Positions 6,303 through 31,712 of a stretch of 64,000 nt of DNA are shown one piece after another (position 1 is the first letter of the stretch; each line of letters begins with the position of its first letter). The notes beneath the pieces were generated by a model. That model ran no database searches. It was given only the letters and a program-made list of their open reading frames with translations, and was not told where the DNA came from. Both the position numbers and the translations under genes were made by a program. Source of the DNA: Campylobacter sp. CN_NE2 (lineage in GTDB: Bacteria > Campylobacterota > Campylobacteria > Campylobacterales > Campylobacteraceae); NCBI RefSeq assembly GCF_027797465.1, contig NZ_CP115608.1:1302001-1366000 (forward strand). Reading direction: 5' to 3'.

Positions 6303-6848
6303 ATGCAACGATTTGAAATACACATTAGCGATAAAATCTTTAAATTTGATAAATCAAAGCTAGATAAAAAAGACAAAAAATCATACAAATCCCGTAAAAA
6401 TTCTGCTGATTTTTTGCTTTCTCGTTCTATTAAATCACGCATTAAAAAACGGGGCAAGTTTTGCATTTCGCATAAAAAATTTGATAGAAATTTGCAAAAT
6501 TTCCATATCGCAGCTGTTGGCTTTTCAAATAAAAAATTTGGGATTGATTTGGAAATTTTAGCGGAGCGAGATTTTGACAGCGTGATTGATTTTTGTTTTA
6601 ACGAATTTGAAAAAAATTTAATGCAAATTTGCGATAAAAGCGAAAAAACAATCCTTTTTTATCAAATTTACACCATCAAAGAAGCTATCATTAAGCTAGA
6701 AAATCTCGCATTTAGCGACCTTGCAAGGGTCGGGCTAAGCACAAATCAAAACGAAATCAAAGCCAAAAACCACAAAGGCAAATTTATAAATTTTAAAACT
6801 TATTTACTTTATAATAGATTTTTGATTTCTGTTTGTTTCAAGGAGTAA
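6303..6848 (+). CDS. 4'-phosphopantetheinyl transferase, Sfp type
   Basis: The 181 aa protein carries the Sfp-family signatures in order: CISHKK (about 54-59, equivalent to the SHS segment that contacts CoA), FGIDLE (79-84) with the metal-binding Asp and Glu, RD (89-90), and IYTIKEAIIKL (122-132) with the WT-KEA motif. It transfers phosphopantetheine from CoA to the Ser of carrier proteins, here most likely the two ACPs at 22788 and 23047. PPTases are regular members of APE clusters. The start lies 21 nt after tRNA-Phe with no obvious promoter and no good SD, so read-through from the tRNA promoter is possible. It is 3 bp from the next gene. Confidence 0.85.
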   Translation: MQRFEIHISDKIFKFDKSKLDKKDKKSYKSRKNSADFLLSRSIKSRIKKRGKFCISHKKFDRNLQNFHIAAVGFSNKKFGIDLEILAERDFDSVIDFCFNEFEKNLMQICDKSEKTILFYQIYTIKEAIIKLENLAFSDLARVGLSTNQNEIKAKNHKGKFINFKTYLLYNRFLISVCFKE

Positions 6849-6851
6849 AAA

Positions 6852-8078
6852 ATGTATGATGCTTTGGTAATTGGTGCTGGACCAAGTGGTAGCGTGACGG
6901 CGGCATTTTTGCACAAAGCCGGTCTTAAAGTGCGAGTTTTGGAAAAAGAAACCATGCCAAAATTCGTCATTGGCGAGAGTTTGCTCTCAAACTGCAACAA
7001 CATCCTTGAAGAAGCAGGTCTATTAGACGCTGTTTATAACTACGGATTTCAATACAAAAACGGCGCAGCTTTTTCGTGGGGCGAAAAATACACATATATC
7101 GATTTTTGCGATAAATCAAGCGTTGGAAGCGGGACGACTTTTCAAGTCCCAAGGGCTGATTTTGACAAGCTTTTAATCGATGAAGTTCAAAAGTTGGGCG
7201 TAGAAGTAACCTACAAATGCGAAGTAAAAGCAGTCGATTTTAGCGGACAAAATGCAGTTTTAAGCGTGGAAAATAACGGCATTAGCGAAAATTTGCAAAG
7301 CAAATTTGTCCTTGATGCAAGTGGATACGGACGGATTTTGCCGACACTTTTAAATTTAGAAACGCCGTCGCATTTGCCACCTAGAAGTGCGTATTTTACG
7401 CATATAGAGGATAATATAACCGAGCCGCTTTATGATAGAAATAAGATTTTAATCACCACTCACCCCGTTCATAGAGATGTTTGGATTTGGTTGATTCCGT
7501 TTTCAAATGGGCGTTGTTCTATCGGCGTGGTTGGCGAAAAACATATCATAAATCCATCAAATTTAGAAATAAATTCTGAAAATAACGCCGAAATTCTTAA
7601 AAAATGCGTTTATGAATGCCCTATGCTAAAAAGGCTTTTAAACAATGCTCTCTGGGATACGCCTGTGCGAAATCTCAACGGATATTCAAAAAATGTAAGC
7701 CGTCTGTATGGCGATAAATACGCACTTTTGGGCAATGCGACTGAGTTTTTAGATCCTGTATTTAGCTCAGGCGTTACGATTGCATTGTATTCAGCTAAAA
7801 TCGCCGCAAAATGCGTGATAGACGAGATCAAAAACGGCAAGGCTGATTGGGAAAATGATTACGCAAAAGAGCTAATGAGCGGCGTTGATACATTTAGAGT
7901 TTATGTCGATGGCTGGTATGATGGCAAATTCCAAGATGTGATTTATTATCCGAAAAAAGATCACAAAATCAAACGCTACATAAGCTCGGTTTTAGCGGGT
8001 TATGCGTGGGATAAAAGCAATCCATTTGTAAAAGATGCAAAAAGGCATTTAGATACCTTAGCTGAGCTTTGCAAATGA
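6852..8078 (+). CDS. Flavin-dependent oxidoreductase, halogenase-like (APE cluster)
   Basis: This 408 aa FAD protein has GAGPSG (8-13) in an N-terminal Rossmann fold, GESLL (41-45), a Lys in FQYKNGAAF (about residue 69) and WIWLIP at 211-216. The last fits the WxWxIP motif of flavin-dependent halogenases. Related proteins occur in APE, flexirubin and xanthomonadin clusters, where some act on the aromatic head. Whether this one halogenates or is a hydroxylase or reductase cannot be decided from sequence. SD AAGGAG lies before ATG 6852. It follows the PPTase by 3 bp and overlaps the next start (ATGA), so it is translationally coupled in the first APE block. Confidence 0.8.
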   Translation: MYDALVIGAGPSGSVTAAFLHKAGLKVRVLEKETMPKFVIGESLLSNCNNILEEAGLLDAVYNYGFQYKNGAAFSWGEKYTYIDFCDKSSVGSGTTFQVPRADFDKLLIDEVQKLGVEVTYKCEVKAVDFSGQNAVLSVENNGISENLQSKFVLDASGYGRILPTLLNLETPSHLPPRSAYFTHIEDNITEPLYDRNKILITTHPVHRDVWIWLIPFSNGRCSIGVVGEKHIINPSNLEINSENNAEILKKCVYECPMLKRLLNNALWDTPVRNLNGYSKNVSRLYGDKYALLGNATEFLDPVFSSGVTIALYSAKIAAKCVIDEIKNGKADWENDYAKELMSGVDTFRVYVDGWYDGKFQDVIYYPKKDHKIKRYISSVLAGYAWDKSNPFVKDAKRHLDTLAELCK

Positions 8079-8464
8079 GATTTTTGATTGCCGTTTTTTT
8101 GGTTTTTTTGTTTTTTGGGTGTGCTGCTAAATTTACACTTAGCGATACGCCCAAATTTAGCCAAAAGCATTTTTTAGTAGAAAAGGACGGCGTAAAAAGC
8201 CAAATTTTTGCTAGAAGCGGCGATGGATTTTATCATTTTATCTGGCTTGATATGCTAAAAGCCCCGATTGCAAGGAAATTTTTGCATTTAAATAATTGCG
8301 GTGAAAAAATTTGCGCAGAATTTGAAAACGACGGATTTTTGCCGCCAAATAAATGGGCTGAAAATTTATTTTTGAATTTGCTTGAAAATATCGAAAAAAG
8401 CGAATTTGAGATAAATTTGCAAGGTCAAATTTACAAGGTCAAAAATGCAAATTTATCTAAGTAG
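8075..8464 (+). CDS. APE-cluster lipoprotein (DUF3261-like)
   Basis: The 129 aa product has a lipoprotein signal peptide ending in the lipobox LFFGC (Cys about residue 16) and a short beta-rich body, the size and position expected for the DUF3261 lipoprotein of APE clusters, thought to assist transfer of the polyene lipid to the outer membrane. I chose ATG 8075, which overlaps the upstream stop as ATGA, over TTG 8069. Its 3' end overlaps the ketosynthase gene by 20 bp. Family assignment is by context, size and lipobox. Confidence 0.65.
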   Translation: MRFLIAVFLVFLFFGCAAKFTLSDTPKFSQKHFLVEKDGVKSQIFARSGDGFYHFIWLDMLKAPIARKFLHLNNCGEKICAEFENDGFLPPNKWAENLFLNLLENIEKSEFEINLQGQIYKVKNANLSK

Positions 8465-9593
8465 CCCAGGTCTTATAAGCTCTGCCGGAAATGATACAAA
8501 CGCCGTATTTAAGGCAGTTTGCGACAAAAACTCAGCCATAAAAAAAATAGAAAATTTTTATAATAACAAAAGCTTTGTTTTGGGCAAAATTTCGCAAAAT
8601 TTAGATCAAATTTGCCCTAAATTTAAAGGAGATTTTGCAAATCGCACAAATCAAATTTTGTTTCTTGCTTTTATGCAGATTGAAAATGAGATTAAAAATG
8701 CGATTGCTAAATTTGGTTCGCACCGCGTCGGTGTGGTCATTGGCACGACCGTAACAGGCGTGCAAAGCAATTTTAAAGCCTTTGAAAATCACGCAAAAAC
8801 GGGCGAATTTAAAGGATACAACACAGAGCAAAACTCTCAGGGAAATCCTGCGAATTTCGTGAGAGATTTTTTTGGCTTAAAAAGCGTTGCGGTGGGGATT
8901 TCGTCAGCTTGCACTAGCGGAAATAAAGCCGTAATCGAAGCTGCAAGGCTTATAAAAAGCGGGATTTGCGACGCTGTGATTTGCGGTGGGAGCGACGGGA
9001 TCGATACTTTGACCGTCTTGGGATTTGAGAGTCTTGGAGTGCTAAGCGATGAGAGATTAAATCCGTTCTCTCTTAACCGAAAAGGCACGAATTTGGGCGA
9101 AGGAGCGGGAGTTTTTTTGCTAAGCCGTGATGAGATTTCAGACATTGCTTTGCTATCATACCACGCAAACTCGGACGCTTTTCATATAACCAAACCAAAT
9201 CCAAATGCCACTATGCAAATTGAGGCGATAAATTTAGCCTTGCAAAAAGCGGGTTTGGACGAAGTGGATTATGTAAATTTACACGGCACAGGCACAAATG
9301 CAAACGACATTATGGAAAGCGTGGCGATAAGTTCGACGCTAAAAAACACGCCGTGTAGTTCGAGTAAGCCGATTTTTGGGCATACGCTAGGAGCTGCCGG
9401 TGCTATTGAACTTGGAATTTGCTTTCAAGCCATAAAAAACGGCATTTTGCCACCTCAAATTTACGATAAAGAGCAAATTTTGCCAAAAATAAATATAATA
9501 GATGAAAAAATACAGACAAACATAAAAACTGCGATGAATTTAAGCTTTGCTTTTGGCGGAGACAACGCAGTTAGCGTGATAGGAAAAATATGA
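8445..9593 (+). CDS. apeO: Beta-ketoacyl-ACP synthase, ApeO-like
   Basis: A 382 aa condensing enzyme with the full Cys-His-His triad: Cys156 in SSACTSGN, His280 in VNLHGTGTNAND and His313 in IFGHTLGAAGA. The order KS-DH-KR-KS that starts here equals the apeO-P-Q-R order of known APE clusters, in which ApeO elongates the polyene with a chain-length-factor partner (ApeC; a match is encoded at 21384). The gene overlaps the lipoprotein gene by 20 bp and the dehydratase gene by 4 bp, so the block is one operon. Confidence 0.85.
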   Translation: MQIYLSSPGLISSAGNDTNAVFKAVCDKNSAIKKIENFYNNKSFVLGKISQNLDQICPKFKGDFANRTNQILFLAFMQIENEIKNAIAKFGSHRVGVVIGTTVTGVQSNFKAFENHAKTGEFKGYNTEQNSQGNPANFVRDFFGLKSVAVGISSACTSGNKAVIEAARLIKSGICDAVICGGSDGIDTLTVLGFESLGVLSDERLNPFSLNRKGTNLGEGAGVFLLSRDEISDIALLSYHANSDAFHITKPNPNATMQIEAINLALQKAGLDEVDYVNLHGTGTNANDIMESVAISSTLKNTPCSSSKPIFGHTLGAAGAIELGICFQAIKNGILPPQIYDKEQILPKINIIDEKIQTNIKTAMNLSFAFGGDNAVSVIGKI

Positions 9594-10015
9594 ATATAAA
9601 ATCAATTTTGCCCCAAAGCGGATATATGGTTTTTTTGGACGAAATCAAAGAAATCAGGCAAGGCGAGATAGTTTGTGGTGTGAAAATTCCACCCAATTCG
9701 CCATTTGTAGAAAACGGACGACTTGAAAGCTGCACATATATCGAAATAATGGCACAATCAATCGCGGCGTATGCAGGAAGCAACGATAAAATCGAGCTTG
9801 GATTTTTGCTAAGTTGTCGCAAAATGGATATTTTCCGCCCTTTTGTAAATGTGGGCGATGAGCTAATCATAAAGGCAGTCGAGAGTCTAAGCGACGGGGC
9901 CGGAATGTTTGTGTTTGATTGTGAAATTTTGCTTAGCAATGAGTGCGTTGCAAGGGCGAGTTTGAGTGTGTTAAATCCAAGCAAAGAATTTTTAGATAAG
10001 GCGATAAATGAATAG
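9590..10015 (+). CDS. apeP: 3-hydroxyacyl-ACP dehydratase, ApeP-like hotdog protein
   Basis: The 141 aa product has the hotdog-fold layout of APE dehydratases: an N-terminal LPQSGYMVFLDEI segment, the long central helix CTYIEIMAQSIAAYAG, then LGFLLSCRKMDIF. In APE synthesis ApeP acts with ApeI to remove water from the beta-hydroxyacyl-ACP and leave the conjugated double bond. The matching ApeI-type domain is fused to the AMP-ligase at 23845. ATG overlaps the KS stop (ATGA) and its end overlaps the KR start by 8 bp. Confidence 0.75.
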   Translation: MNIKSILPQSGYMVFLDEIKEIRQGEIVCGVKIPPNSPFVENGRLESCTYIEIMAQSIAAYAGSNDKIELGFLLSCRKMDIFRPFVNVGDELIIKAVESLSDGAGMFVFDCEILLSNECVARASLSVLNPSKEFLDKAINE

Positions 10016-10733
10016 GCGGGTTTTGATTACAGGTTCTAGTGCTGGGATCGGCAAGGCGTGTGCTTTAAGACTAGCAAAAGCCGGTTATGAAGTGGTTTTG
10101 CACGGGCGAAATTTGATAAATTTACAAGCCGTAGCGGATGAAATTTGCAAATTTAGCGGCAAAAAGCCTGAAATTTTAAATTTTGATGTCGCAGATACTG
10201 AGGGGGCAAAAGAAATTCTTACAAAAGATTTGCAAAACGGCGTGTATTACGGCGTGATTTTAAACGCAGGAATCACGCGAGATAACACATTTGCAGGGCT
10301 TGAAGAGATTGAGTGGAAAAGCGTAATTGATACAAATTTAAATAGTTTTTACAATGTGCTAAATCCCGTGCTAATGCCGATGATAAGGGCAAAAAGTCCG
10401 GCTAGAATAATCGTAATGAGCTCAGTTAGCGCAATCATGGGAAATCGCGGACAGAGCAATTACGCCGCTAGTAAAGCAGGCCTTATCGCAGCGGCAAAAT
10501 CTTTGGCGATTGAGCTTGCAAGCAGGAAAATAACCGTTAATTGCATAGCACCGGGGCTAATAGATACGGCGATGACGGATTTGGGCGAATTAAAAGATGA
10601 GATAATCAAGCAAATTCCGGCTCGTCGCATCGGGGAAGCAGACGAAGTGGCGGCTTTGGCTGAGTTTTTGCTAAGCGAAAATGCTAGCTATATCACAAGA
10701 CAAGTAATAGGAGTAAATGGCGGATTATGTTAA
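10008..10733 (+). CDS. apeQ: 3-ketoacyl-ACP reductase (FabG family), ApeQ-like
   Basis: A 241 aa short-chain dehydrogenase. It shows the NADPH motif TGSSAGIG (8-15), NAGITRDN (about 86-93), the catalytic Ser in SSVSAIMGN and the Tyr-x3-Lys pair in SNYAASKAG, and the C-terminal VNGG. It reduces the beta-keto group of the ACP-bound chain. Placement between two KS/DH genes and 7-8 bp overlaps on both sides mark it as part of the APE pathway rather than housekeeping FabG. Confidence 0.9.
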   Translation: MNRRVLITGSSAGIGKACALRLAKAGYEVVLHGRNLINLQAVADEICKFSGKKPEILNFDVADTEGAKEILTKDLQNGVYYGVILNAGITRDNTFAGLEEIEWKSVIDTNLNSFYNVLNPVLMPMIRAKSPARIIVMSSVSAIMGNRGQSNYAASKAGLIAAAKSLAIELASRKITVNCIAPGLIDTAMTDLGELKDEIIKQIPARRIGEADEVAALAEFLLSENASYITRQVIGVNGGLC

Positions 10734-11956
10734 ATAGGGTTGTTGTTACTGGTTTTGGAAATGTTTGTGCGTTTGGGCGTGAGTGGAGCGAGATAAGAGC
10801 TAAATTTGAAGCTAAGCAAAATGCCGTTAAATTTATGAGCGAGTGGGATAGATTTGGGAGTGAATTAAATACTCGCTTAGCCGCTCCGATAATAAACTAC
10901 GCACCGCCTTCGCAGTGGGATAGAAAACAACTTCGCTCTTTGGGGATAGTTTCTCAATACGCCGTCGAAGCAGCAGGACTAGCCTTAAAAGATGCTGGAC
11001 TTTTAGATGATGAGAGCATAAAAGACGGGCGAATGGGCGTGGCAGCAGGGTCAAGCACAGGAAGCACAGAAGCCATGTCTCAGGCGGTTACTTTGCTACT
11101 TGGCATGGAGAGCAATTTTAATGCAAACACATATATAAGAATGATGCCACACACCACAGCAGCAAATATTTCTATTTTTTATGGGCTAAAAGGTCGCATG
11201 ATTCCGACAAGTTCGGCTTGTACGAGTGCAAGTCATGCCATAGGATACTCTTATGAAGCCATAAAATACGGACAAATCGATATGATGTTAGCAGGTGGCG
11301 CAGAAGAGCTTTGTCCTAGCGAAGCCTTTGTTTTTGATAGATTGTTTGCGACAAGTTGCAAAAATGATGCGCCAAAAACCGCTCCTGCGCCGTTTGATGC
11401 GGATAGAGACGGGCTAGTTTTGGGCGAAGGCGGATCGATGCTAGTTTTAGAGAGTTTAGAAAGTGCAAAAAAAAGAAATGCCAAAATTTACGCTGAAATT
11501 GTAGGTTTTGGATCAAGTTGTGATGGCACTCACATCACTAGACCGCAAAGTGCCACGATGAAAGAAGCTATGCGTTTAGCTTTAAAAGATGCAAATTTGA
11601 CGCCTGAAAAAATCGGCTACATAAACGCTCACGCCACAGCTACCAAACAAGGCGACATTGCAGAAAGCCATGCTACAAATGAGCTTTTTGGAGATAAAGT
11701 AGCAATTAGCTCACTTAAAAGCTATCTTGGCCATACTTTGGGGGCGTGCGGGGCATTGGAGAGTTTTTTTAGTATAATGATGATGAAACAAAGTAGGTTT
11801 TATCCAAATTTAAATTTAAATAAAGTAGATTGCGAGTGCGCAAATTTAAACTATTTGCGCGATATTACTGAGATAAAAACCGAATTTGTAATGAATAATA
11901 ATTTCGCATTTGGCGGGGTTAATACATCTTTGATTTTTAGAGATTTTAAAGAGTAA
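10727..11956 (+). CDS. apeR: Beta-ketoacyl-ACP synthase, ApeR-like
   Basis: A 409 aa KAS II-type condensing enzyme with Cys165 (SSACTSASH), a His in INAHATATKQGD and a His in SYLGHTLGACGALE. In APE systems the second KS is thought to act at chain initiation. It is longer than the ApeO-like KS and clearly a distinct paralogue, not a duplicate. It overlaps the KR gene by 7 bp and is followed after 16 bp by a small exported protein gene with its own good SD (AAAGGAG). Confidence 0.85.
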   Translation: MLNRVVVTGFGNVCAFGREWSEIRAKFEAKQNAVKFMSEWDRFGSELNTRLAAPIINYAPPSQWDRKQLRSLGIVSQYAVEAAGLALKDAGLLDDESIKDGRMGVAAGSSTGSTEAMSQAVTLLLGMESNFNANTYIRMMPHTTAANISIFYGLKGRMIPTSSACTSASHAIGYSYEAIKYGQIDMMLAGGAEELCPSEAFVFDRLFATSCKNDAPKTAPAPFDADRDGLVLGEGGSMLVLESLESAKKRNAKIYAEIVGFGSSCDGTHITRPQSATMKEAMRLALKDANLTPEKIGYINAHATATKQGDIAESHATNELFGDKVAISSLKSYLGHTLGACGALESFFSIMMMKQSRFYPNLNLNKVDCECANLNYLRDITEIKTEFVMNNNFAFGGVNTSLIFRDFKE

Positions 11957-11972
11957 ATTTAAAGGAGACAAA

Positions 11973-12395
11973 ATGAAAAAATTTGTTTTATTTTTAGGTG
12001 CAATGCTACTTACTAGCAGTGTTTGGGCGAAAAATGATGTAATGCGATTTTCTATTCAGGGTGCATTAAACGACCCAAGAGCAAAAGAGGTGCTAGATCC
12101 TAGCATTAAGTTATATTTTGGTAAAGACGGCGGTAAAGCTAAAAAAATTACCCAGCAGCTCTCAGCCAACAAAAAGACAAACGGCGTAGGCAAAAGCGAT
12201 GAAGCAGCCTGCAACTGGGCGTTTTTATCTGCGATTAAGACTTTTCAAGAAAGAGCCAAAAGAGAAGGCGGAAGCAAGGTTGTAAATCTTTCTAGCTACT
12301 ATTATAAAAATGAATTTATAAGCAGTAAAGAATTTGAGTGCGGTGTCGGAAATATAATGGTCGGCGTTACACTTCGTGGCTATATTGCAAAATAA
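11973..12395 (+). CDS. Small exported APE-associated protein ('excinuclease ATPase subunit' family)
   Basis: The 140 aa product has a signal peptide (MKKFVLFLGAMLLTSSVWA) and the conserved body of a family often misnamed excinuclease ATPase subunit: a YFGKDGG segment, then DEAACNWAFLSAIKTFQERAK, GGSKVVNLSSYY and a C-terminal EFECGVGNIMVGVTLRG with a likely Cys-Cys disulfide pair (CNW and FECG). Members are found in APE clusters and act in the periplasm or outer membrane, but the molecular role is not known. It is the last gene of the first APE block and is followed by a hairpin. Confidence 0.75.
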   Translation: MKKFVLFLGAMLLTSSVWAKNDVMRFSIQGALNDPRAKEVLDPSIKLYFGKDGGKAKKITQQLSANKKTNGVGKSDEAACNWAFLSAIKTFQERAKREGGSKVVNLSSYYYKNEFISSKEFECGVGNIMVGVTLRGYIAK

Positions 12396-12761: not shown

Positions 12762-13478
12762 TTGAGTAAAACACATCAATTTGTCATTACAAATCCCGGT
12801 CTTTGTATAGGCTGTAAGGCCTGTGAAAAGGCTTGCGTTAAAGAATCTATAAAACGCGGAAAGTTAGGGATTACCAGAATTAAGGTTTCCAAAGTAGAAA
12901 AAACTTCTTCTACAAATCAGTGTCGTCAGTGCGACGATGCTCCGTGTGCGGTCGTTTGTCCTAGCGGTGCTTTACAAAATTTGGGCGATTTCGTCCATTT
13001 AAATGAGCATTTATGTATAGGCTGTGGGCTTTGCACGGTAGCATGTCCGTATGGTGCGATTAGTCTTGATTGTATGGATGTTTTTGGCGTAGATAGAGAT
13101 GAAAGCGATCTATCTCAGCCCGGATTTCCTAATATCGCCGTAAAATGCGATATTTGCGACGGTAGAGTCGAAGGTTCTGCTTGTGTTGAAGCCTGTCCAA
13201 AAGGTGCTATTATTATGCTGGATTTTAAAGACAACCATAAATTCGGCAAAAAGCTAAAAGATACGGAAAATATGCAGGAATTTATCCACGCAATAAGCGG
13301 AAAAAAGGTAGATGTAGAAAAATTTGTGCCAAAAGCACCGCCAAAACCTGCACCTGCAACTCCTAATGCAGAAGCTGCAAATTCCGAAACTTCTGCAAAT
13401 TCGCAAGAAAAACCGAAAAAAGACGAGAATTCGGCGAATTTGCAAAATCCAACGGATAACAAGGAAGACAATGCTTAA
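12762..13478 (+). CDS. hyfA: Hydrogenase-4 component A, 4Fe-4S ferredoxin subunit
   Basis: The 238 aa protein is a HycB/HyfA-type iron-sulfur protein with four Cys clusters: CIGCKACEKAC (16-26), CRQCDDAPCAVVCP (about 54-67), CIGCGLCTVACP (about 86-97) and CDICDGRVEGSACVEACP (about 127-144). Such a subunit links an electron-donating dehydrogenase to the membrane hydrogenase. The last 50 residues are a Pro/Ala/Asn-rich tail without cysteines. Translation starts at TTG 12762 behind SD AAAGGTGAT. Its 3' end overlaps hyfB by 8 bp. No formate dehydrogenase gene lies beside it, so the electron donor is not shown by the window. Confidence 0.9.
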   Translation: MSKTHQFVITNPGLCIGCKACEKACVKESIKRGKLGITRIKVSKVEKTSSTNQCRQCDDAPCAVVCPSGALQNLGDFVHLNEHLCIGCGLCTVACPYGAISLDCMDVFGVDRDESDLSQPGFPNIAVKCDICDGRVEGSACVEACPKGAIIMLDFKDNHKFGKKLKDTENMQEFIHAISGKKVDVEKFVPKAPPKPAPATPNAEAANSETSANSQEKPKKDENSANLQNPTDNKEDNA

Positions 13479-16229: not shown

Positions 16230-16230
16230 T

Positions 16231-16866: not shown

Positions 16867-16867
16867 T

Positions 16868-21313: not shown

Positions 21314-21350
21314 CCGATTTATAACAATTTAAGATTAAGAGATATTTTGC

Positions 21351-21356
21351 TATAAT
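21351..21356 (+). promoter_or_regulatory. Extended -10 promoter of APE block 2
   Basis: GATATTTTGCTATAATTTTA: a TATAAT box with the T-rich TG(C) extension typical of Campylobacter housekeeping promoters, 27 bp before the TTG start of the chain-length-factor gene. This gives the second APE block its own transcription start. Confidence 0.75.
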
Positions 21357-21383
21357 TTTAGCCATTTTAATTTAGGGGTTAAA

Positions 21384-22791: not shown

Positions 22792-23045
22792 GTGATCTTA
22801 TTTTAGAGATTAAAGAGATGATTATCTCAGGGCTTAACCTTGAAGATATGAGCGTGAGCGACATCGACGAAAATGCACCGCTTTTTGGAGAAGGACTTGG
22901 GCTCGATAGCGTCGATGCGCTTGAACTTGGACTTTTGATCCAAAAAAAATATGACATTGTTATAAACTCAAAAACTGAAAATGTCAAAGAAATTTTCGCA
23001 AATGTCGTAAATTTGGCAGATTTTATATCAAAAAATAGGAAATAA
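22788..23045 (+). CDS. apeE: Acyl carrier protein 1 (ApeE-like)
   Basis: The 85 aa acidic protein has the phosphopantetheine site GLGLDSVDALEL with Ser41. It is overlapped by 4 bp with the acyltransferase gene. In APE systems one ACP carries the aryl starter and chain; two dissimilar ACPs in tandem are a hallmark of these clusters. Confidence 0.88.
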   Translation: MSDLILEIKEMIISGLNLEDMSVSDIDENAPLFGEGLGLDSVDALELGLLIQKKYDIVINSKTENVKEIFANVVNLADFISKNRK

Positions 23046-23046
23046 A

Positions 23047-23298
23047 ATGGATAAAAATCAGATTTTTGAAATTCTAAAACAGGCTTTGGTTGAGCTTTTT
23101 GAGATAGATGAAAGCAAAATTTCGCTTGATGCTAAGATTTATGAAGACTTAGACATAGATAGCATTGATGCGATTGATTTGGTTGATTTTGTCAAAAAAC
23201 AAACAGGTCATAAACTAATGCCAGAAGACTTCAAAGCCATAAAAACGCTTGGCGATATTGTTGAGGTCGTGGCGAAAAAATACCAAATCGGCGAGTAA
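23047..23298 (+). CDS. apeF: Acyl carrier protein 2 (ApeF-like)
   Basis: The 83 aa acidic carrier protein has DLDIDSIDAIDL with Ser39 as the phosphopantetheine site. It starts 1 bp after ACP 1. The sequence is closer to standard ACPs than ACP 1 and clearly not a recent copy of it. It is the second substrate of the PPTase encoded at 6303. Confidence 0.88.
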   Translation: MDKNQIFEILKQALVELFEIDESKISLDAKIYEDLDIDSIDAIDLVDFVKKQTGHKLMPEDFKAIKTLGDIVEVVAKKYQIGE

Positions 23299-23300
23299 AT

Positions 23301-23852
23301 TTGAAAACTTTTTTAAAGGCGATAATTACGCTTTTTAGCGTGATTTATCCTTTTGGAATTGTCTTTTTTAGAGAGTTTAGCCTTTATTTATTGATTATAA
23401 TGGCGATTTTATGGGGACTGCGCGGGATTTTGGAATTTGGCTTTGAGAGCAAAAATTTAAGCGAATTTGGTAAATTTAGTTTTGTTATGTGCGGTTTTTT
23501 CGCACTTTGTGCGGTTTTTAGTGCTTATGGGATAAAATATCTTTATCCTGTGCTAATAAATGCTTTTTTGGGGGCAGTTTTTTATTTTAGCTTAGCTAAC
23601 ACGCCGATGATAACTAAATTTGCTATGTTAAAAGAAAGAAATTTAGAGCCAAAAGCTTTGATTTATACTAGAAATTTAACCAAAATTTGGATAGGATTTT
23701 TTATTTTTAACGGGCTTATAAGTGCGATTTTGGCGTGTTTTGAAAACAAAATTTATTGGGGTGTTTATTGTGGGGCGATTTCTTATGTTTTGGTAGGAGC
23801 GTTGCTTTTTGGCGAGATTATTTTTAGGAAGTTTTATATAAAAAATGCGTGA
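23301..23852 (+). CDS. APE-cluster integral membrane protein (COG4648-like)
   Basis: The 183 aa protein has about five hydrophobic segments and matches by size and position the COG4648 membrane protein that follows the ACPs in APE clusters (apeG position). Function unknown. TTG 23301 directly follows the ACP stop; the end overlaps the AMP-ligase start by 8 bp. The identification is mainly by context. Confidence 0.7.
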   Translation: MKTFLKAIITLFSVIYPFGIVFFREFSLYLLIIMAILWGLRGILEFGFESKNLSEFGKFSFVMCGFFALCAVFSAYGIKYLYPVLINAFLGAVFYFSLANTPMITKFAMLKERNLEPKALIYTRNLTKIWIGFFIFNGLISAILACFENKIYWGVYCGAISYVLVGALLFGEIIFRKFYIKNA

Positions 23853-25371
23853 ATTTATACAAAATTTAAGTGAAATTTCGGAGCAAATTTGCAAATTTGC
23901 AGCTGTTTTAAAAAATAAAAACATAAAGCGAACTCAAATTTTCCTAAGCGATATGAGTGAGTTTAAAATCGCCTTTTTTGGGGCGATGCTAGCAGGGACA
24001 AAACCTGAACTTTTAAGAGATAATCATTTTGAAGACGGTTTTTTTGGCATTGATGATGAAAAATTTGCCAAGATTTGTGCTGAGTTTGAAAATTTGAGCG
24101 AATTTGGCGAATTAAATTTAAACGGAAGCGAGATTTTTTATCTAAAAACTTCGGGAAGCACAGGCAAACCAAAAAACATTCAAAAGTCGCTTTTGGATAT
24201 GGTCTTAGAAGCAAAGCATTTAGCAAAAGCCCTAAATTTAAGCTCCCAAGAGCAGTTTTTAGCCAGTGTAACTCACCAAAATATGTTTGGGCTGACATTT
24301 AAGTTTTTTTTGCCGTTAGTTTTGGACGCGAAGTCTTATAAGGGCGAATACAACTACCCTGAAATTATTTTTGATCAAAGCCTAAATGGCTCTATTTTGA
24401 TCTCATCGCCTACGATTTTAAACGCACTTTATCAGCACAAAAACGCCAAAAAAATAGCAAATTTAAAAATGATAATCTCAGCAGGAGCTAGGCTTCCGCA
24501 AAATTTGCGAGATGAATTAAATAAAATCACAAATGCTAAAATCGTCGATATTTACGGATCTAGCGAAACGGGCGTTGTAGGGGCAAATTTAGGAATGGGG
24601 CTTAAAAAATTTGAGCCTGTGAATTTAGAAGTGGGCAGTAAAGGCGAACTCATCATAACTTCGCCTTGGTGCAAAAGGTTCGAAAGTAGCGATAGCGGCG
24701 AGATTAGAGGCGATGATATTATTTTGCACGGACGGCTTGATAGGATTGTTAAATTTAGCGAAAAGCGCGTAAATTTAGACGCCATAGAAGAAAAATTAAA
24801 TCAAAATGAACTTATAAAAGACTGCAAACTAGGGCTTCACCCAAAATTTGAGCGAATTTTGGCTTTGATAGTTTTAAGCGAGAGCGGCGAAGAAGAGTTT
24901 AGAAAAAACGGCAAAAAAAGCGTCGTAGAAAACTTAAAAAAATATCTAAAATATGATTTTGGCTCGGTTGTAAGGTATTTTAAAATAGTCAGCAAAGTCC
25001 CGTATTCTGCGCAAAGTAAGGTAAAAAAAGATGATTTCATAAAAGCTTATGAAACCTACGAAATGCCTGAATTTACGCAAATTTCGCAAAATGAATTCAA
25101 GGCAAAGATTAAGCCAAGTGATTTTTATTTTGACGGACATTTTGCGAGTTTTCCTGTGGTACCGGGCTTTATGCAGTTTAAATTTGCTAGGATTTGCGCA
25201 GAAAAATTAGGATATGATTTGCAAAATTTAAGCCATATTCCAAGCATAAAATTTATGCACTTTATCCGTCCAAATGACGAAATAATCGTATCGTTTGAGA
25301 AAAAAGAAAAAACGCTAAGTTTTAAAATCAAAAGTCAAAAAGAGTGTTGCAATGGAAAAATCAGCCTTTAA
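23845..25371 (+). CDS. apeH: Aryl-ACP AMP-ligase fused to a 3-hydroxyacyl-ACP dehydratase (ApeH-ApeI)
   Basis: Residues 1-400 are an adenylate-forming ligase: KTSGSTGKPK (about 103-112) P-loop, DIYGSSETG (about 233-241), HGRLDRIVKF (about 292-301) hinge and an acidic-basic C-terminal domain ending near SKVPYSAQSKVKKDDF. Residues about 410-508 are a hotdog dehydratase domain with FYFDGHFASFPVVPGFMQ, the FabZ/ApeI signature with its catalytic His. The ligase activates the aryl starter acid for loading on ACP. In E. coli-type clusters these are two genes, here one 508 aa protein. It overlaps the glycosyltransferase gene by 20 bp. Confidence 0.85.
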   Translation: MREFIQNLSEISEQICKFAAVLKNKNIKRTQIFLSDMSEFKIAFFGAMLAGTKPELLRDNHFEDGFFGIDDEKFAKICAEFENLSEFGELNLNGSEIFYLKTSGSTGKPKNIQKSLLDMVLEAKHLAKALNLSSQEQFLASVTHQNMFGLTFKFFLPLVLDAKSYKGEYNYPEIIFDQSLNGSILISSPTILNALYQHKNAKKIANLKMIISAGARLPQNLRDELNKITNAKIVDIYGSSETGVVGANLGMGLKKFEPVNLEVGSKGELIITSPWCKRFESSDSGEIRGDDIILHGRLDRIVKFSEKRVNLDAIEEKLNQNELIKDCKLGLHPKFERILALIVLSESGEEEFRKNGKKSVVENLKKYLKYDFGSVVRYFKIVSKVPYSAQSKVKKDDFIKAYETYEMPEFTQISQNEFKAKIKPSDFYFDGHFASFPVVPGFMQFKFARICAEKLGYDLQNLSHIPSIKFMHFIRPNDEIIVSFEKKEKTLSFKIKSQKECCNGKISL

Positions 25372-26071
25372 GCCTGTTTTTTTGGTGCCTTACTACAACC
25401 ACCCCGCTAAAATCGCCGTTTTAGTAGAAAATTTATCAAAAATGGGCGAGATTTTAATCATCGATGACGGCAGTGATGAAGTTAGCAAAAATGCACTAAT
25501 CGGCTTAAAAGCTGAAATTTTTACTCGCGAAAACAACGGCGGCAAGGGCGCTGCACTCAAAGACGGATTTAAAATCGCTTTGCAAAAAGGCTACACTCAC
25601 GCATTTCAAATCGATGCTGATTTTCAGCATGATATTTCAAAATGCGACGATTTTTTGCAAATCGCACAAATAAATCCGCACTCGCTAATATGCGCCAATC
25701 CGATTTACGATGAAAATGCACCAAAAAGCCGTTTTTACGGACGCAAAATAACAAATTTTTGGTGCGCCATAAATTCTCTTTCAAGCGACATAAAAGACGG
25801 CATGTGCGGGTTTAGAATTTATCCCTTAAAAGAGATTTGCGAAATTTTACCAAGCGTAAAAGATGATCGCATGGGCTTTGATATCGAAATTTTGGTTCAA
25901 GCTTACAGAGCGAAAATAAACCTAAAATGGATTGAGCTGAAAGTTCGCTACGAGAAGGGCGGGGTTAGCCATTTTCGCATGTTTAGGGATAATTTTCAAA
26001 TTTCACTAACCCACGCAAGGCTGTTTTTCACGCTTCCCTTATGGTTGGTAAAAAGGGCATTTCATGGCTAA
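25352..26071 (+). CDS. Family 2 glycosyltransferase (APE cluster)
   Basis: A 239 aa GT-A enzyme of the dolichyl-phosphate-mannose-synthase type: VFLVPYYNH start, IIDDGSDE (about 35-42), ENNGGKGAALKDG (about 60-72) and the metal-binding IDADFQHD (about 86-93). In many APE clusters this domain is the N-terminal half of one protein with the acyltransferase encoded just downstream; here they are separate with an 8 bp overlap. It probably adds the sugar that bears the polyene ester. Confidence 0.82.
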   Translation: MEKSAFKPVFLVPYYNHPAKIAVLVENLSKMGEILIIDDGSDEVSKNALIGLKAEIFTRENNGGKGAALKDGFKIALQKGYTHAFQIDADFQHDISKCDDFLQIAQINPHSLICANPIYDENAPKSRFYGRKITNFWCAINSLSSDIKDGMCGFRIYPLKEICEILPSVKDDRMGFDIEILVQAYRAKINLKWIELKVRYEKGGVSHFRMFRDNFQISLTHARLFFTLPLWLVKRAFHG

Positions 26072-26969
26072 GCACTGGGCAGAGCAAAACGAAGTCGCAC
26101 CAAGTTTATTTTTAAAAGCGACATTTTTTTTGGTTACAAAACTGCCTAGTTTTATCGTTAAGTGTATCGTATTTATCGTGGTTAGCGTCTATTTTTTGTT
26201 TTTAAAAAATCAAAGAGAAAATATAATAAATTTTAGAAAAAATGTCGCACAAAGTGGCGGAAAAATAAGCGGAAACGCGTATGCGAATTTTTATAATTTT
26301 GGCGTTGCAATCTGCGATAAAATCGCCATTTGGACAAATAAAAAGGGAATAGAAATCGACCGAACAAATTTAGAAAAAATTCGCTCACAGCTCGACGGCG
26401 TAAAACGGGGCAAAATTTTGCTAACTAGCCATTATGGCAATATCGAAGTGGCAAAAGCCCTTGTGAGCGAACTTGGTCGCACGAAAATAAATATCTTTAT
26501 GTATCGCGCAAACAATGCTAAATTTAACGAATTTATGGATAAAGTCAGTGGCGGGAAAATCAATGTCTTTTGGGTCGATGAACTAAATATTGAAACTATG
26601 CTAAATTTGGGAAATTTGCTAGATAACGGCGAACATATCGCTATAATGGCAGATCGTGTGCCGATAAAAAGCGAAAAGGTCGCAAGTGCCAAATTTTTGG
26701 GAAAAACGGCGAATTTTAGCATTGGAGCGTATCTCATAGCAGGGATTTTAAAGGCTGAAATTTACTCATTTTGGTGTTACAAAGTAGGCAAAAAATATAC
26801 TTTTGAAACGAAAAAACTGCCAAGCGTGGAGCTAAAAAGCGATAAAATCGCTTCTGTAATGCCTGCTTTGAGAGCGTATGTGGCGGATTTAGAGAGCAAA
26901 TGCGTAAGCGATCCCGCGCAATGGTATAATTTTTTTGATTTTTGGGGGCAAGGTGAAAAAGAGCTATAA
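26064..26969 (+). CDS. LpxL/HtrB-like acyltransferase (COG4261, APE cluster)
   Basis: The 301 aa protein has one N-terminal membrane anchor (about 22-48), the HX4E catalytic motif in SHYGNIEV (about 125-132), an ADRVP segment (about 196) and a C-terminal PAQWYNFFDFWG, as in lysophospholipid and lipid A late acyltransferases. It is the predicted enzyme that joins the finished polyene or a fatty acid to the sugar lipid. It overlaps both neighbours. Confidence 0.82.
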   Translation: MAKHWAEQNEVAPSLFLKATFFLVTKLPSFIVKCIVFIVVSVYFLFLKNQRENIINFRKNVAQSGGKISGNAYANFYNFGVAICDKIAIWTNKKGIEIDRTNLEKIRSQLDGVKRGKILLTSHYGNIEVAKALVSELGRTKINIFMYRANNAKFNEFMDKVSGGKINVFWVDELNIETMLNLGNLLDNGEHIAIMADRVPIKSEKVASAKFLGKTANFSIGAYLIAGILKAEIYSFWCYKVGKKYTFETKKLPSVELKSDKIASVMPALRAYVADLESKCVSDPAQWYNFFDFWGQGEKEL

Positions 26970-27357
26970 ATTTAGAGTTGAGTTTTATGATACCGACAGC
27001 ATGGGCGTAGTGTGGCACGGAAACTATGTCAAATACTGCGAAATGGCGCGGTGTGCGTTTTTGCGCGAGATCGGCTACACTTATATCGATATGAAAAATG
27101 ACGGATACGCTTATCCGATTGTGAAAATGGATTTTAAATTTGTGCGTCCTGCGATGTTTGATGATGAAATTTGTGTTGAAGTAGAATTGAGCGAATTTGA
27201 AAGCTTACTTAAATTTAAATACACCATAAAAAACGCTGATACGGGCGAAATTTTATGCAAGGCAACCACTGCCCAAGCAGCGGTAAATTTAGAAAATATG
27301 GAAACCTGCTTTTATCTACCTGAGATTTTAAAAGAAAAATTAAAGGGACTAAAATAA
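26953..27357 (+). CDS. apeK: YbgC/4HBT-type thioesterase (ApeK-like)
   Basis: The 134 aa hotdog thioesterase shows the family signature YDTDSMGVVWHGNYVKYCEMAR near its N-terminus, with the catalytic Asp and the following His. I chose GTG 26953, which has a strong SD (GGGGGCAAG) and starts with KKSYKFRVEFYD; the frame is open from TTG 26935. It overlaps the acyltransferase by 17 bp and ends APE block 2. It likely hydrolyses stalled or finished thioesters from the ACPs. Confidence 0.85.
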   Translation: MKKSYKFRVEFYDTDSMGVVWHGNYVKYCEMARCAFLREIGYTYIDMKNDGYAYPIVKMDFKFVRPAMFDDEICVEVELSEFESLLKFKYTIKNADTGEILCKATTAQAAVNLENMETCFYLPEILKEKLKGLK

Positions 27358-27399: not shown

Positions 27400-27420
27400 C
27401 TACGGTCCTTAAATAAAAAT

Positions 27421-27714
27421 TCACCTGCAACCACCGAACCAACTATCACCGTGCGTGCAATCAGATTTTTTAGATTGAGTTTGTTTCTTCGAGGCTGTTT
27501 TCTTTTGAGTCACTTTTTTTTGACCTAGTTTCTTTTTCAATTGCTCATTCTCATATTTTAGTTTATCGTTTTCTTCCATTAGCTGATCAACAGCCTCTCG
27601 CCATTTTGCACTATTTTCTGCAAGTTGTGCTTCGCAACTATCTGCCATAGCAAATGAAGCAGAACCCATTAATAAGCCTAATGCTAAACCAACTTTTACA
27701 AAACTTTTTGTCAT
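27421..27714 (-). CDS. Small secreted coiled-coil protein
   Basis: The 97 aa product has a signal peptide (about 1-24, ending SFAMA), then a coiled coil (about 30-66) with ENDKLKYENEQLKKKLG-type heptads, a Lys/Thr/Ser/Gln-rich segment, and a C-terminal DSWFGGCR with two cysteines near the end (three Cys in all). The cysteine and glycine pattern suggests a surface or periplasmic role, but I do not recognise a family. SD AAGGAG precedes the ATG. A 14-G tract lies 48 bp upstream, at the position of a -35 element, so expression may be phase variable. Confidence 0.7.
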   Translation of the reverse strand: MTKSFVKVGLALGLLMGSASFAMADSCEAQLAENSAKWREAVDQLMEENDKLKYENEQLKKKLGQKKVTQKKTASKKQTQSKKSDCTHGDSWFGGCR

Positions 27715-27761
27715 TTTTGACTCCTTGTAGAAAATTTTATAAAAAATTATCCATAATTTTA

Positions 27762-27775
27762 CCCCCCCCCCCCCC
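27762..27775 (-). repeat. Poly-G tract (14 G on the minus strand)
   Basis: Fourteen uninterrupted C on the plus strand (G on the minus strand). On the minus strand it precedes a TATAAA (27741-27736) by about 20 bp and the ATG at 27714 by 48 bp. In Campylobacter, G tracts of this length change length frequently and switch genes on and off. It lies outside any supported coding frame, so an effect on promoter spacing is the likely mode. Confidence 0.85.
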
Positions 27776-27896
27776 TAATAAAAACTTAAATTTTCAATTT
27801 TTTTTGAAAAAAATGAAAAATTTGATGATTTTTTCTAAATTTTGATAAAAAAATAGAGAATTTAAAAAATATTTTGTGTTTTTTTGTCAAAGAAGT

Positions 27897-28841
27897 TTAT
27901 GAAATAGATTTAAAACGAATTCTCTCAATAGGTTTTTCGATGAATTTATAAGCTAAAAGTCCGAATAAAAATGAAGAAATAATCATAAAAGTTATGTTTA
28001 GTTCATCAAATTTCCACATACAGATACAATAAAACAGTGCGTGGTTTAAAAATATGTGATAGCTTAAAGCCCCGCAAACGCTATTAAATTTGGCTTTAAA
28101 TTTGATTTGTGATAGCTCATAAACAAGCGGAATGCCGACTAATACGGCAAAAGGTAATTCAAAAGAAACAGCATCACAATAATATATATTTACAATAAGT
28201 TCTATAAACAATATAGCCCACCAAATTCTAAGTTCTTTTAGTTTCTTTTCTCTGATTAATTTGCCTATATAAAAAACAAAAAACACTCCCCAAAAATATC
28301 TATAATCCCACATATAAATCATTTCATTATCTATAAGCACCAAATTTGATATAGTGAAAATAATAAATGAAATAATGGCTAAAATTTTCATAAATTTCTC
28401 TTTTTTCAGGGCAAATAAAAGCGCAAAGATAAAATAAATTTGGACTTCAAGAGCTAATGAAAAAGCAGGCGGTAAAATTATATCACTCTTATCATTGACT
28501 ACACTTACTACTCCAATATCAAATATTAGATTGTAATTTAACGGAATAAGCGTAAAATGTGCGAGTGTCCTTAATAAGGTTGTTCTAAATTCCCAAAAAC
28601 CACTAAAATAAAAAAATAAAAATGCTAAACTTATATAAAGGAAAAACACAGGATAAATGCGTAAAAATCTATCTTTAAGATATTCTTTTGGAGAGTATAA
28701 ATTTAGTAATTTTGTGCTAACAGAACCTGCTAAAATATAAAAAATAAATACACAAAATGGACCAAAATTTATCAATGGTTTATCAAGTATGTGATGAAAC
28801 ATTACACCACAAGCTAAAATAAGTCGCAAATATCCTATCAT
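27897..28841 (-). CDS. Acyltransferase family 3 membrane protein (OafA-like)
   Basis: The 314 aa protein has about ten hydrophobic helices and the family features YLRLILACGVMFHH (His17 region, the catalytic His pair zone), the RFLRIYPVFFLY motif (about 58-69) and a typical final helix with FIEKPIERIR. Family members O-acetylate surface sugars. It is slightly short for the family but shows both ends. Its strand and very AT-rich sequence differ from the APE genes around it. With the small secreted protein it forms the insert that splits the thioesterase from the carrier/exporter genes. Confidence 0.82.
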   Translation of the reverse strand: MIGYLRLILACGVMFHHILDKPLINFGPFCVFIFYILAGSVSTKLLNLYSPKEYLKDRFLRIYPVFFLYISLAFLFFYFSGFWEFRTTLLRTLAHFTLIPLNYNLIFDIGVVSVVNDKSDIILPPAFSLALEVQIYFIFALLFALKKEKFMKILAIISFIIFTISNLVLIDNEMIYMWDYRYFWGVFFVFYIGKLIREKKLKELRIWWAILFIELIVNIYYCDAVSFELPFAVLVGIPLVYELSQIKFKAKFNSVCGALSYHIFLNHALFYCICMWKFDELNITFMIISSFLFGLLAYKFIEKPIERIRFKSIS

Positions 28842-29068: not shown

Positions 29069-29587
29069 ATGAGAATTTTGCTTTCGTTTTTGGCATTTTG
29101 TGGTTTGGTTTTTGGCTTGGAAGTGGGCGAGTTAAATCTCAAAACCGACAACATAAGCGGTAAATTTAACGAAGAGATGATTTTGGGCGGATTTGACGAG
29201 CCGATTAAAAGTAGTGGCGAGTTTGAAATAAAAAACAAAGAGCTTATTTGGCATATAAAAGAACCGCTCGAAAGTAGCGTTAAAATCGCACAAAATGGCA
29301 TTTTTAGCCTAGAAAACGGCAAATGGGAACTGCAAAAAAACTCACTCATGGATAAAGAGCTTTTTTTGGCGATTTTTTCTTTGGATTTTGGCGTTTTGCA
29401 AAAAGATTTTGACATTTCGCTAAGTGGCGAAAGTGGCGCATGGGAGCTAAATTTAAGCCCAAAAGGGACGCTTTTTAAAGAAATTTTTAAAAACATTATC
29501 ATAAAAGGTGGCGAAATGGTGCGAGAAATCGCCATTACTAACGCGCAGGGCGATGAAACAAGGACTTTGTTTAGCGATGTTAAATAA
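29069..29587 (+). CDS. LolA-like periplasmic carrier protein (APE cluster)
   Basis: The 172 aa product has a signal peptide (MRILLSFLAFCGLVFG) and the beta-rich pattern of LolA-type lipid carriers, with FEIKNKELIWHIKEPLES (about 50-67) matching the LolA strand in which the cargo is bound. APE clusters regularly encode a LolA-like protein before the MMPL exporter, and the pair moves the polyene lipid to the outer membrane. It overlaps the exporter gene by 11 bp. Confidence 0.78.
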   Translation: MRILLSFLAFCGLVFGLEVGELNLKTDNISGKFNEEMILGGFDEPIKSSGEFEIKNKELIWHIKEPLESSVKIAQNGIFSLENGKWELQKNSLMDKELFLAIFSLDFGVLQKDFDISLSGESGAWELNLSPKGTLFKEIFKNIIIKGGEMVREIAITNAQGDETRTLFSDVK

Positions 29588-31712
29588 AGCCGTTTTTGCC
29601 ATAACTTTTGCCATAATGAGCGTTTTTATCGCTTTGAATTTGGGCAAAATAAATTCCGATATTTACGGCTTAATCGGGTTCGATAAAGAAAGCAAGGAAA
29701 TTTTTACCAACCTAAATAATAGTTTAAGAGATGAGATAATTTTTGCTTCAAATGATAAAATGAAATTTGAAAATTTTATCGCAGAGTGCGAAAATAGCGG
29801 GATTTTTAGCGAAATTTTATATAAGATAAATTCGATAAAAGATTATCAAAAAGAGCTTGAAATTTACAAAATCGCACTTTTGGACGATGAGAGCGTAAAT
29901 TTACTCGAAAACGATGCTACTGCCTTTTTTGCGCGAAGTCAGGCGGATTTTTTCAATAAATTTAAGCCGTTAAGTGCTTCGCAGGATTTTTTTTCATTGA
30001 CTCTTCACTCAGAGATTTTAAAAGGCGGCGGCGGGATTAAATTTGATATGAGTGAAAATCGATTTTACGGCGAGATCGAAAGCCAAAAATATTATTTTGC
30101 CAAAGCAAAATTAGAGCAAATTTATGATGAAAATGTGCTTTTAAATTTAACCCAAATCGCAAAAAATAGCGAAATTCTTATAAGCGGCGGTGCGATTTAC
30201 TCGGCACTTGGGAAAAATTCGGCTAAATTTGAAAGTGCGTTTATGGGAAGTTTTTCGCTGATAATCTGCGCTATTTTGCTATTTTTGGCTTTTAAAAACG
30301 CTAGAATTTTTGCCGTTACTGGCGTAGTGGCTTTTGGGCTAGTTAGCGGGGTGTTTGCGTTATTTTTGTTTTTTGAGAGCGTTCATAGCATAAGCGTGGT
30401 GATTTCGACTAGCTTAATCGGACTAATGCTCGATTTTAGCGCACATTGGCTTGGCTCAAATGCAAATTCGCTGGTAAAAAAACAGAGCATAAAAGATATG
30501 AAAAAAATCTTTTTGTTAGGCTTTTTTATTACCGCTGGGGGATACGCTGTATTTTTGTTTTCGTCGTTTGATTTGCTTTTGCAAATTGCGGTGTTTGCGA
30601 TATTTGCGCTTTTGGGAGCGTTTTTATTTTCTTATTTTATGTTGCCTGAAATTTTTGATAATTGCGAATTCAAAAGCTCTAAAATTTGGGATAAATTTTT
30701 GCAAATTTTGATTAAATTCTCTGCTAAATTTAAATTCGTAAATTTGAAATTTAATCTTGTTTGCATAGCGATTTTAACGCTATTTTTGTATAATTTTGCC
30801 GTTTTTAAAGACGACATTAGCGAGTATTCTAGTATGGATAAAACGCTTTTGCAAATGAGCGCTAAACTATCCACGCTAAGCTCTCAAAGTTATGATTTGG
30901 CGGTTTTAGATAGTGGCTCAAATGTGCCAAATACGCTTCTTTCTAACGAAATCATCGGCTCGTATTTGAGTGCGGAAAAATTTATCCAAAGCCCAAAAAC
31001 GCAAGAAAAAATAATTCAAATTTTTGCAAATTCCAATGCAGATTTGATGAAAGGCATAAATCCAAATTTGGTTCAAAAAGAGCTTGACAAACTCGCAAAT
31101 TCGCAGGTCTTCACGCAAAATGAAGTTTTAAATTCATCGCTTTTTTTAAATTTAAAAAATTTGCAAATAGATGATAAAAATATCGTTTTTTTATACGATA
31201 TAAAAGATAAAATCGCATTAAAAAATGCCATTTTAGCAGGTGGCGGAGCGTATTTAAGCTTCAAAGATAGCGCAAATTCGGCATTTTTAAACATTAAGAT
31301 AAATGCGATTTACCTTAAAATCATCGCTTACGCCTTAGCCTTTGCGCTTTTGTGTTATTTTTTCGGATTAAAAATCAGTGCAAATATCGTCACGGCGGTA
31401 TTTTTATCAAATTTAATAACACTTTTTATCCTTAGTATTTTTGGTTTTTCTATCAATATTTTTGTGATTTTTGGGCTAATTTTAGCGGGGGCTGTGGGGG
31501 TTGATTATATGATTTTTGCGTTAAATTCGCACCTTCAAACAGCCAAAAAAACCTTTGGCATAAGCGTTGCGGCTCTTACTAGCATGGTTTCATTTTTTGC
31601 TCTTAGTTTTAGTGGGACTGCGGCGGTAGCGGTTTTTGGGCTAAGTGTGGCGATAAACATCGCGATTTGTGCGTTTTTAGCAGGAATTTACGCCAATAAA
31701 TTCACTGCCTAA
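29577..31712 (+). CDS. MMPL/RND-family exporter (APE cluster)
   Basis: A polytopic transporter of about 711 aa with the duplicated layout of MMPL proteins: one N-terminal helix, a large periplasmic domain (about 30-210), a helix block that holds STSLIGLMLDFSAHW with the membrane Asp, a second periplasmic domain (about 410-570) and a final block with LAGAVGVDYMIFAL. I start at ATG 29577, where the first helix begins (MLNKAVFAIT); ATG 29553 is also possible. It is the predicted exporter of the aryl polyene lipid and ends the APE locus. It converges on pldA, overlapping it by 11 bp. Confidence 0.85.
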   Translation: MLNKAVFAITFAIMSVFIALNLGKINSDIYGLIGFDKESKEIFTNLNNSLRDEIIFASNDKMKFENFIAECENSGIFSEILYKINSIKDYQKELEIYKIALLDDESVNLLENDATAFFARSQADFFNKFKPLSASQDFFSLTLHSEILKGGGGIKFDMSENRFYGEIESQKYYFAKAKLEQIYDENVLLNLTQIAKNSEILISGGAIYSALGKNSAKFESAFMGSFSLIICAILLFLAFKNARIFAVTGVVAFGLVSGVFALFLFFESVHSISVVISTSLIGLMLDFSAHWLGSNANSLVKKQSIKDMKKIFLLGFFITAGGYAVFLFSSFDLLLQIAVFAIFALLGAFLFSYFMLPEIFDNCEFKSSKIWDKFLQILIKFSAKFKFVNLKFNLVCIAILTLFLYNFAVFKDDISEYSSMDKTLLQMSAKLSTLSSQSYDLAVLDSGSNVPNTLLSNEIIGSYLSAEKFIQSPKTQEKIIQIFANSNADLMKGINPNLVQKELDKLANSQVFTQNEVLNSSLFLNLKNLQIDDKNIVFLYDIKDKIALKNAILAGGGAYLSFKDSANSAFLNIKINAIYLKIIAYALAFALLCYFFGLKISANIVTAVFLSNLITLFILSIFGFSINIFVIFGLILAGAVGVDYMIFALNSHLQTAKKTFGISVAALTSMVSFFALSFSGTAAVAVFGLSVAINIAICAFLAGIYANKFTA

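Follow-up and report, generated by a model that had tools for sequence, protein, structure and literature searches.

A Campylobacteraceae aryl polyene-type gene cluster split at the sec140-apeC joint, with a hydrogenase operon between its halves

We analysed a 64,000-nucleotide stretch (the window) of the single 1.54-Mb contig that makes up the genome of Campylobacter sp. CN_NE2, a rumen-type Campylobacter, and found in it an aryl polyene (APE) type biosynthetic gene cluster divided by an intact hyf hydrogenase operon. We are confident that an ancestral Campylobacteraceae cluster, once contiguous and still under selection, was cut at the joint between sec140 and apeC by a rearrangement which joined hyfI to apeC in this species. 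The rearrangement is recent and lineage-specific, and the split looks accidental. A common pigment pathway thus stays under selection although its operon has been cut in two, and the locus illustrates clearly how an operon can break where two ancestral modules meet.

Gene content of the three blocks

The APE genes lie in three co-directional blocks (6303-12395, 21384-27357 and 29069-31712), of which the first two are separated by hyf (12762-21290) and the last two by a minus-strand pair (27421-28841), and all open reading frames are intact. This is the layout, and includes every gene, described in an earlier sequence-only reading, as judged from ORF translations, profiles and BLAST. That reading had omitted the flavoprotein and sec140, both standard in Acinetobacter-type APE clusters. 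Gene names are based on Pfam/NCBIfam profiles, PDB matches, and BLAST comparison with APE proteins from E. coli and A. baumannii.

6206-6281, plus: tRNA-Phe (gaa), by ARAGORN; 5' edge of block 1
6303-6848, plus: 4'-phosphopantetheinyl transferase (PPTase); PF01648, 34.8 bits (cut-off 25); position conserved
6852-8078, plus: FAD-dependent halogenase/oxidoreductase-like tailoring enzyme; PF04820, 67.5 bits
8069-8464, plus: small lipoprotein in the ApeN (DUF3261/LolB-like) position; lipobox-like FFGC; position conserved
8445-9593, plus: ApeO-type ketosynthase (KSo); BLAST, PDB and tree
9590-10015, plus: ApeP-type dehydratase subunit; PF22817 above cut-off; alignment
10008-10733, plus: ApeQ-type ketoreductase; 52% identical to ApeQ versus 42% to FabG
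10727-11956, plus: ApeR-type ketosynthase (KSr); 54% to ApeR; NF006587, 642 bits (cut-off 470); tree
11973-12395, plus: sec140, a 140-aa secreted protein; Campylobacteraceae synteny; homologues called 'excinuclease ABC subunit A'
12762-21290, plus: hyfABCEFGHI, intact group-4 membrane [NiFe]-hydrogenase operon; Pfam and synteny
21329-21356, plus: extended -10 promoter-like site (TGCTATAAT) for block 2; consensus match only
21370-21395, plus: probable scar, the end of a former sec140 gene; match to the sec140 end of sister species G075; ATTGCAAAATAAA
21384-22064, plus: ApeC chain-length factor; PF13723, 109 bits; start codon TTG
22048-22791, plus: ApeD lysophospholipid acyltransferase; 37% to ApeD
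22788-23045, plus: ApeE acyl carrier protein (DSV); 55% to ApeE, 31% to AcpP; NF006617 above cut-off
23047-23298, plus: ApeF acyl carrier protein (DSI); 46% to ApeF; NF003757 above cut-off
23301-23852, plus: ApeG membrane protein; 39% to ApeG
23845-25371, plus: ApeH-ApeI fusion, an AMP-forming ligase with a dehydratase domain carrying the GHF His
25352-26071, plus: N-terminal half of ApeJ, GT2 glycosyltransferase; 38% to ApeJ 5-234
26064-26969, plus: C-terminal half of ApeJ, LpxL-like acyltransferase; 30% to ApeJ 247-549
26935-27357, plus: ApeK thioesterase; 40% to ApeK
27421-28841, minus: interrupting pair, a 97-aa secreted coiled coil and an acyltransferase-3
29069-29587, plus: ApeL LolA-like carrier; PF19574 above cut-off; ApeL E=2e-9
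29568-31712 (start near 29568), plus: ApeM MMPL/RND-type exporter; ApeM E=1e-16, 19% over 746 aa

In a tree of 33 ketosynthases, where several long branches limit finer reading, the two ketosynthases of the window grouped with ApeO and ApeR (100/100 each), separate from E. coli FabF and FabB and from the FabF of the same genome. KSo is 34% identical to E. coli ApeO by BLAST, scoring 227 bits against 104 to FabF, and its best PDB match is 6qsp_A; the chain-length factor matched only 6qsp_B and 7f28_A in the PDB, 6qsp being the Xenorhabdus ApeO:ApeC pair. Both acyl carrier proteins match ApeE and ApeF far better than AcpP by BLAST. A grouping of the ketosynthase and carrier protein genes with primary fatty acid synthesis, which the sequence-only reading had named as grounds for abandoning the APE assignment, was not found in the ketosynthase tree, and tree and BLAST together rule out that identity for the ketosynthases.

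Around the ApeO-type ketosynthase and ApeC-type chain-length factor the window encodes a second ketosynthase of the ApeR rather than the FabF type, an ApeQ reductase, two dedicated acyl carrier proteins, an ApeH-type AMP ligase, and a lipid attachment and export module (ApeD, J, K, G, L and M), in which ApeM is a weak match and ApeN is placed by position only. The residues of the ApeP/ApeI dehydratase pair are complementary in motif alignment, as in E. coli: the His is on the ApeI domain, while the ApeP-type subunit keeps the Glu of E-x-MAQ and lacks the catalytic His. The ApeI domain scores under its Pfam cut-off (18.5 versus 28.5 bits); the fusion as a whole aligns over 509 aa with its fused A. 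baumannii counterpart at 27% identity, and its ligase is 24-27% identical to ApeH. The least secure names are those of the lipoprotein in the ApeN position, which had no sequence match to ApeN, and of the MMPL protein, for which the Pfam search returned no match.

The flavoprotein is 50% identical to the FAD protein of the A. baumannii APE cluster and carries GxGxxG and WxWxIP motifs. No Pfam family scored above cut-off for sec140, whose homologues adjoin ApeR in APE clusters of Campylobacteraceae and Acinetobacter, lie one gene away in Pseudoalteromonas, and are frequently mis-named 'excinuclease ABC subunit A'; the protein may have a role in APE lipid handling. A flexirubin/dialkylresorcinol cluster was considered and rejected, with FlxB (233.5 versus 340 bits) and LolA2_flexi (32.9 versus 125 bits) both under cut-off. 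Judged from its genes, the locus is a genuine APE-type cluster with an ordinary gene set, and the tree, BLAST and profiles bear out the sequence-only reading in its claim that all core functions are present. Contiguity, which is usual but not strictly defining for an APE cluster, is lost here and kept in relatives.

Gene order in relatives and the origin of the split

A chain-length factor was detected in 54 of 153 Campylobacteraceae genomes, in some weakly, and 43 of the 153 have both it and a close ApeR; APE clusters of oral Campylobacter are already on record (PMC8549736). The gap between ApeR and ApeC is below 1.5 kb in 38 of the 41 genomes having both on one contig. The three exceptions are this genome, with hyf in between; G067, with a gap of 3.2 kb that contains the flavoprotein gene; and G004, whose APE order is E. 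coli-like. Nearly all loci read share the order PPT-(FAD)-N-O-P-Q-R-sec140-C-D-E-F-G-HI-GT-AT-K-L-M, in which sec140 is the usual bridge from ApeR to ApeC. The order that the sequence-only reading had called the reverse of the usual one is thus reversed only relative to E. coli and Acinetobacter; N-O-P-Q-R before C-M is the normal arrangement of the family, permuted from the Proteobacterial one, and hyf sits exactly at the permutation joint. Contiguous clusters (G075, G013, G058, G020 and others) have the genes and order of the window, the flavoprotein in some only, with no internal hyf and with sec140 and apeC adjacent or overlapping in the ones that resemble the window most closely. The comparison across genomes proposed by that reading therefore gives APE loci without hyf between the halves as the rule in Campylobacteraceae. 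A contig scan for relatives returned four, three Campylobacter MAGs and one Treponema MAG. In G044 (L049) block 1 alone was seen and no chain-length factor was detected, making this genome a candidate for true APE cluster decay.

The join of hyf to apeC occurs only in this genome and in a MAG of the same species, G073. An assembly artefact could be suspected, since the sec140-hyfA junction comes from this assembly only, but the genome is in a single contig and the hyfI-apeC junction recurs in the independent G073 assembly (99% over 121 bp), which leaves an artefact exceedingly improbable. In the sister species G075 the cluster is whole save for a 1.1-kb gap before ApeL, and its genes are mostly 92-98% identical to those of the window. 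On its 1608-kb contig hyf is found at 211.5 kb and the cluster at 1439 kb, about 0.4 Mb apart by the shorter way if the molecule is circular. There sec140 overlaps the start of apeC, and the window has two copies of the 13-bp overlap, ATTGCAAAATAAA, one at 12385 where sec140 stops and one at 21382 where apeC starts. The 14 nt 5' of the apeC TTG match the G075 sec140 end at 12 of 14 positions, although they also hold an AGGGG ribosome site and 5 of the 63986 14-mers of the window match equally well.

A transposon-like insertion of hyf, with the 13-bp repeat on both sides, was rejected: most of the repeat belongs to the coding sequence of the two genes, and inspection by eye revealed no terminal inverted repeats. 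In the hyfI-apeC spacer, 30 bp (21343-21372) are 97% identical to the 5' end of lemA of G074/G075, and lemA was not found at the DNA level in this species; the match is AT-rich, similar chance matches occur, and we did not accept it as a remnant.

Rearrangements, which we traced by single probes, extend beyond the hyfI-apeC join. Block 1 of G073 adjoins pckA, and the ferritin gene is inverted beside hyfA. The 3' end of tRNA-Phe (6268-6284) forms a 17-bp repeat at which an insert sits in G073, with ferritin and tRNA on one side and the PPTase gene on the other. Since G073 shares the hyfI-apeC junction yet differs in block 1, ferritin and the tRNA flanks, this spot has been rearranged more than once. 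The G073 insert (L034 1-2305; L035 16694-18484) contains a tyrosine-integrase gene and foreign sequence and has the appearance of an integrative element inserted at tRNA-Phe. G013 has yet another arrangement, unlike that of the window, with hyf downstream of ApeM at a distance of 62 bp. The idea that APE clusters host a hydrogenase is not supported by this comparison: a single species has the arrangement, G075 carries both loci intact and apart, and G073 is differently rearranged. Subscription journals aside, we found no report of hyf or a hydrogenase inside an APE cluster in the literature on APE and Campylobacter or Epsilonproteobacteria.

The site of the second gap is variable, its pair being swapped for unrelated genes in G075 and G013 having none. 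Beside the pair, an intergenic run of about 14 C (27762-27776) is a possible phase-variable tract. At the window's start, positions 1-772 form a repeat with another copy at 118 kb of the same genome and three copies in G075; comEA-like genes come next at two sites of this genome. The repeat is likely the end of an rRNA operon and a possible substrate for rearrangements.

Selection and the relation to hyf

HyfG carries both CxxC nickel-ligand motifs and belongs with the group 4 [NiFe]-hydrogenases. The Hyf of C. concisus evolves H2, and its hyfB is needed for H2 evolution and dispensable for growth (PMC6155014). The label 'respiratory hydrogenase' given by the sequence-only reading is thus misplaced, the C. 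concisus enzyme being non-essential and distinct from the respiratory uptake hydrogenase (PMC6155014). The C. concisus genes are also annotated as a hyf operon; in this genome hyf lies inside the APE cluster instead. Compared with G075 (L038), the operon is mosaic, with protein identities of 91-98% for hyfC-hyfG and 71-83% for hyfA, hyfB, hyfH and hyfI, which suggests recombination within the operon.

Across 17 APE genes, dN/dS against G073 ranged from 0 to 0.37 with a median of 0.10, comparable with hyf. By this measure both halves are still under selection, and the pigment genes still look functional. Inactivation of the pathway by the split, with its genes now decaying, would fit a cluster in three blocks for which no starter source was found; it is very unlikely, however, as neither split genome has a broken APE ORF within the reach of its contigs and dN/dS is low throughout. 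Recombination has occurred: sequence identity varies in a mosaic pattern across the region, and the KSo tree and the KSr tree differ as to which of G073 and G075 is closer. Part of the divergence between the two split genomes may derive from recombination with G075-like DNA, which would weaken the inference that all of the selection is post-split.

Alternatively, recruitment of hyf may have served to tie block 2 to the hydrogenase, through a shared transcript or similar regulation. This view draws on the 93 bp between the hyfI stop and the apeC start on the same strand with no strong terminator found between them, on the conservation of this join in two genomes, and on the position of hyf just downstream of ApeM in G013. 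The two genomes with the join, however, belong to one species, G075 keeps hyf and the APE genes far apart, and block 1 of G073 is no longer beside hyf. With the extended -10 promoter-like site in front of apeC, block 2 could be expressed independently of hyf, although such sites were no more numerous in our scan than in shuffles. We found no evidence of a functional link between hydrogenase and pigment and consider coupling improbable; we prefer an accidental rearrangement within a cluster still under selection.

Predicted pathway, starter unit and known systems

In the established or proposed scheme for E. coli and Xenorhabdus, ApeH places 4-hydroxybenzoate on an acyl carrier protein, ApeO-ApeC together with Q and I/P lengthen it into a polyene, release and attachment of the product fall to K, D and J, and G, L, M and N are proposed to export it (PMC8253772). 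Each of these roles is filled by genes of the window. Our analysis shows gene identity, synteny, phylogeny and selection directly, and from the gene content we predict chemistry, product and expression. The PPTase, the predicted activator of the APE carrier proteins, would prime ApeE and ApeF, and the ApeH domain would put an aromatic acid onto the carrier. ApeO-ApeC would extend the chain, with reduction by ApeQ and dehydration by the ApeP-ApeI pair yielding the polyene. ApeK, ApeD and the two ApeJ halves would release it and attach it to lipid, and ApeG-L-M-N would carry the product, presumably a carotenoid-like aryl polyene membrane pigment, to the outer membrane. The halogenase-like flavoprotein may modify the ring, and Hyf would be an unrelated H2-evolving complex.

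No ammonia lyase or other aromatic lyase was found anywhere in this genome, which extends the sequence-only reading's statement on ammonia lyase to the whole genome. Its companion statement, that an aryl O-methyltransferase is missing, holds to the extent that an ApeB-like gene was not found in a search run without a positive control. The chorismate lyase UbiC was absent from this genome and from all 153 Campylobacteraceae genomes searched; of the 43 genomes with the cluster, 6 have an aromatic-lyase-family gene, which is distant from the cluster or lies on a different contig and in one case contains internal stops. A source of aromatic starter is usual but not strictly defining for APE, as cells could take up the acid or make it by another route.

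These absences, and a ligase with such low identity to ApeH, would suit a cluster that makes a non-aryl polyene or a special fatty acid. We think this unlikely, though less so than decay or coupling: the ligase is still fused as ApeH-ApeI, as in A. baumannii, the WxWxIP motif of the halogenase-like enzyme suggests an aromatic ring, and in E. coli 4-hydroxybenzoate comes from UbiC, with no starter gene inside the APE cluster (PMC8253772). It is also conceivable, though less likely than not, that Campylobacteraceae build their aryl polyenes on an aromatic acid which they make by neither known route, such as phenolic acids of plant origin taken up in the rumen or mouth, or that their starter is another one and possibly not aryl. 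With UbiC missing throughout and the lyase-family gene so rare, remote and in one case broken, the starter unit becomes a testable question, and this pattern across at least 43 cluster-bearing members of the family is a more useful fact than the split.

The window genes ApeC, D, E, F, G, H+I, J, K, L, M, O, P, Q and R correspond one-to-one by BLAST, and ApeN by position, to apeA-R of E. coli CFT073 (NC_004431.1); relative to that cluster the window lacks ApeA and ApeB, adds PPTase, flavoprotein and sec140, and has H and I fused and J split. The APE cluster of A. baumannii (CP035931.1, 378278-395586) reads C-D-E-F-G-HI(fused)-GT-AT-K-L-M-FAD-N-O-P-Q-R-'excinuclease'-PPTase. It differs from the window in having an aromatic amino acid lyase as its sole extra gene, the halves in the opposite order, and no hyf; it contains every gene type of the window and shares with it the fused ApeH-ApeI, the split ApeJ, the flavoprotein, the 'excinuclease' protein and the PPTase.
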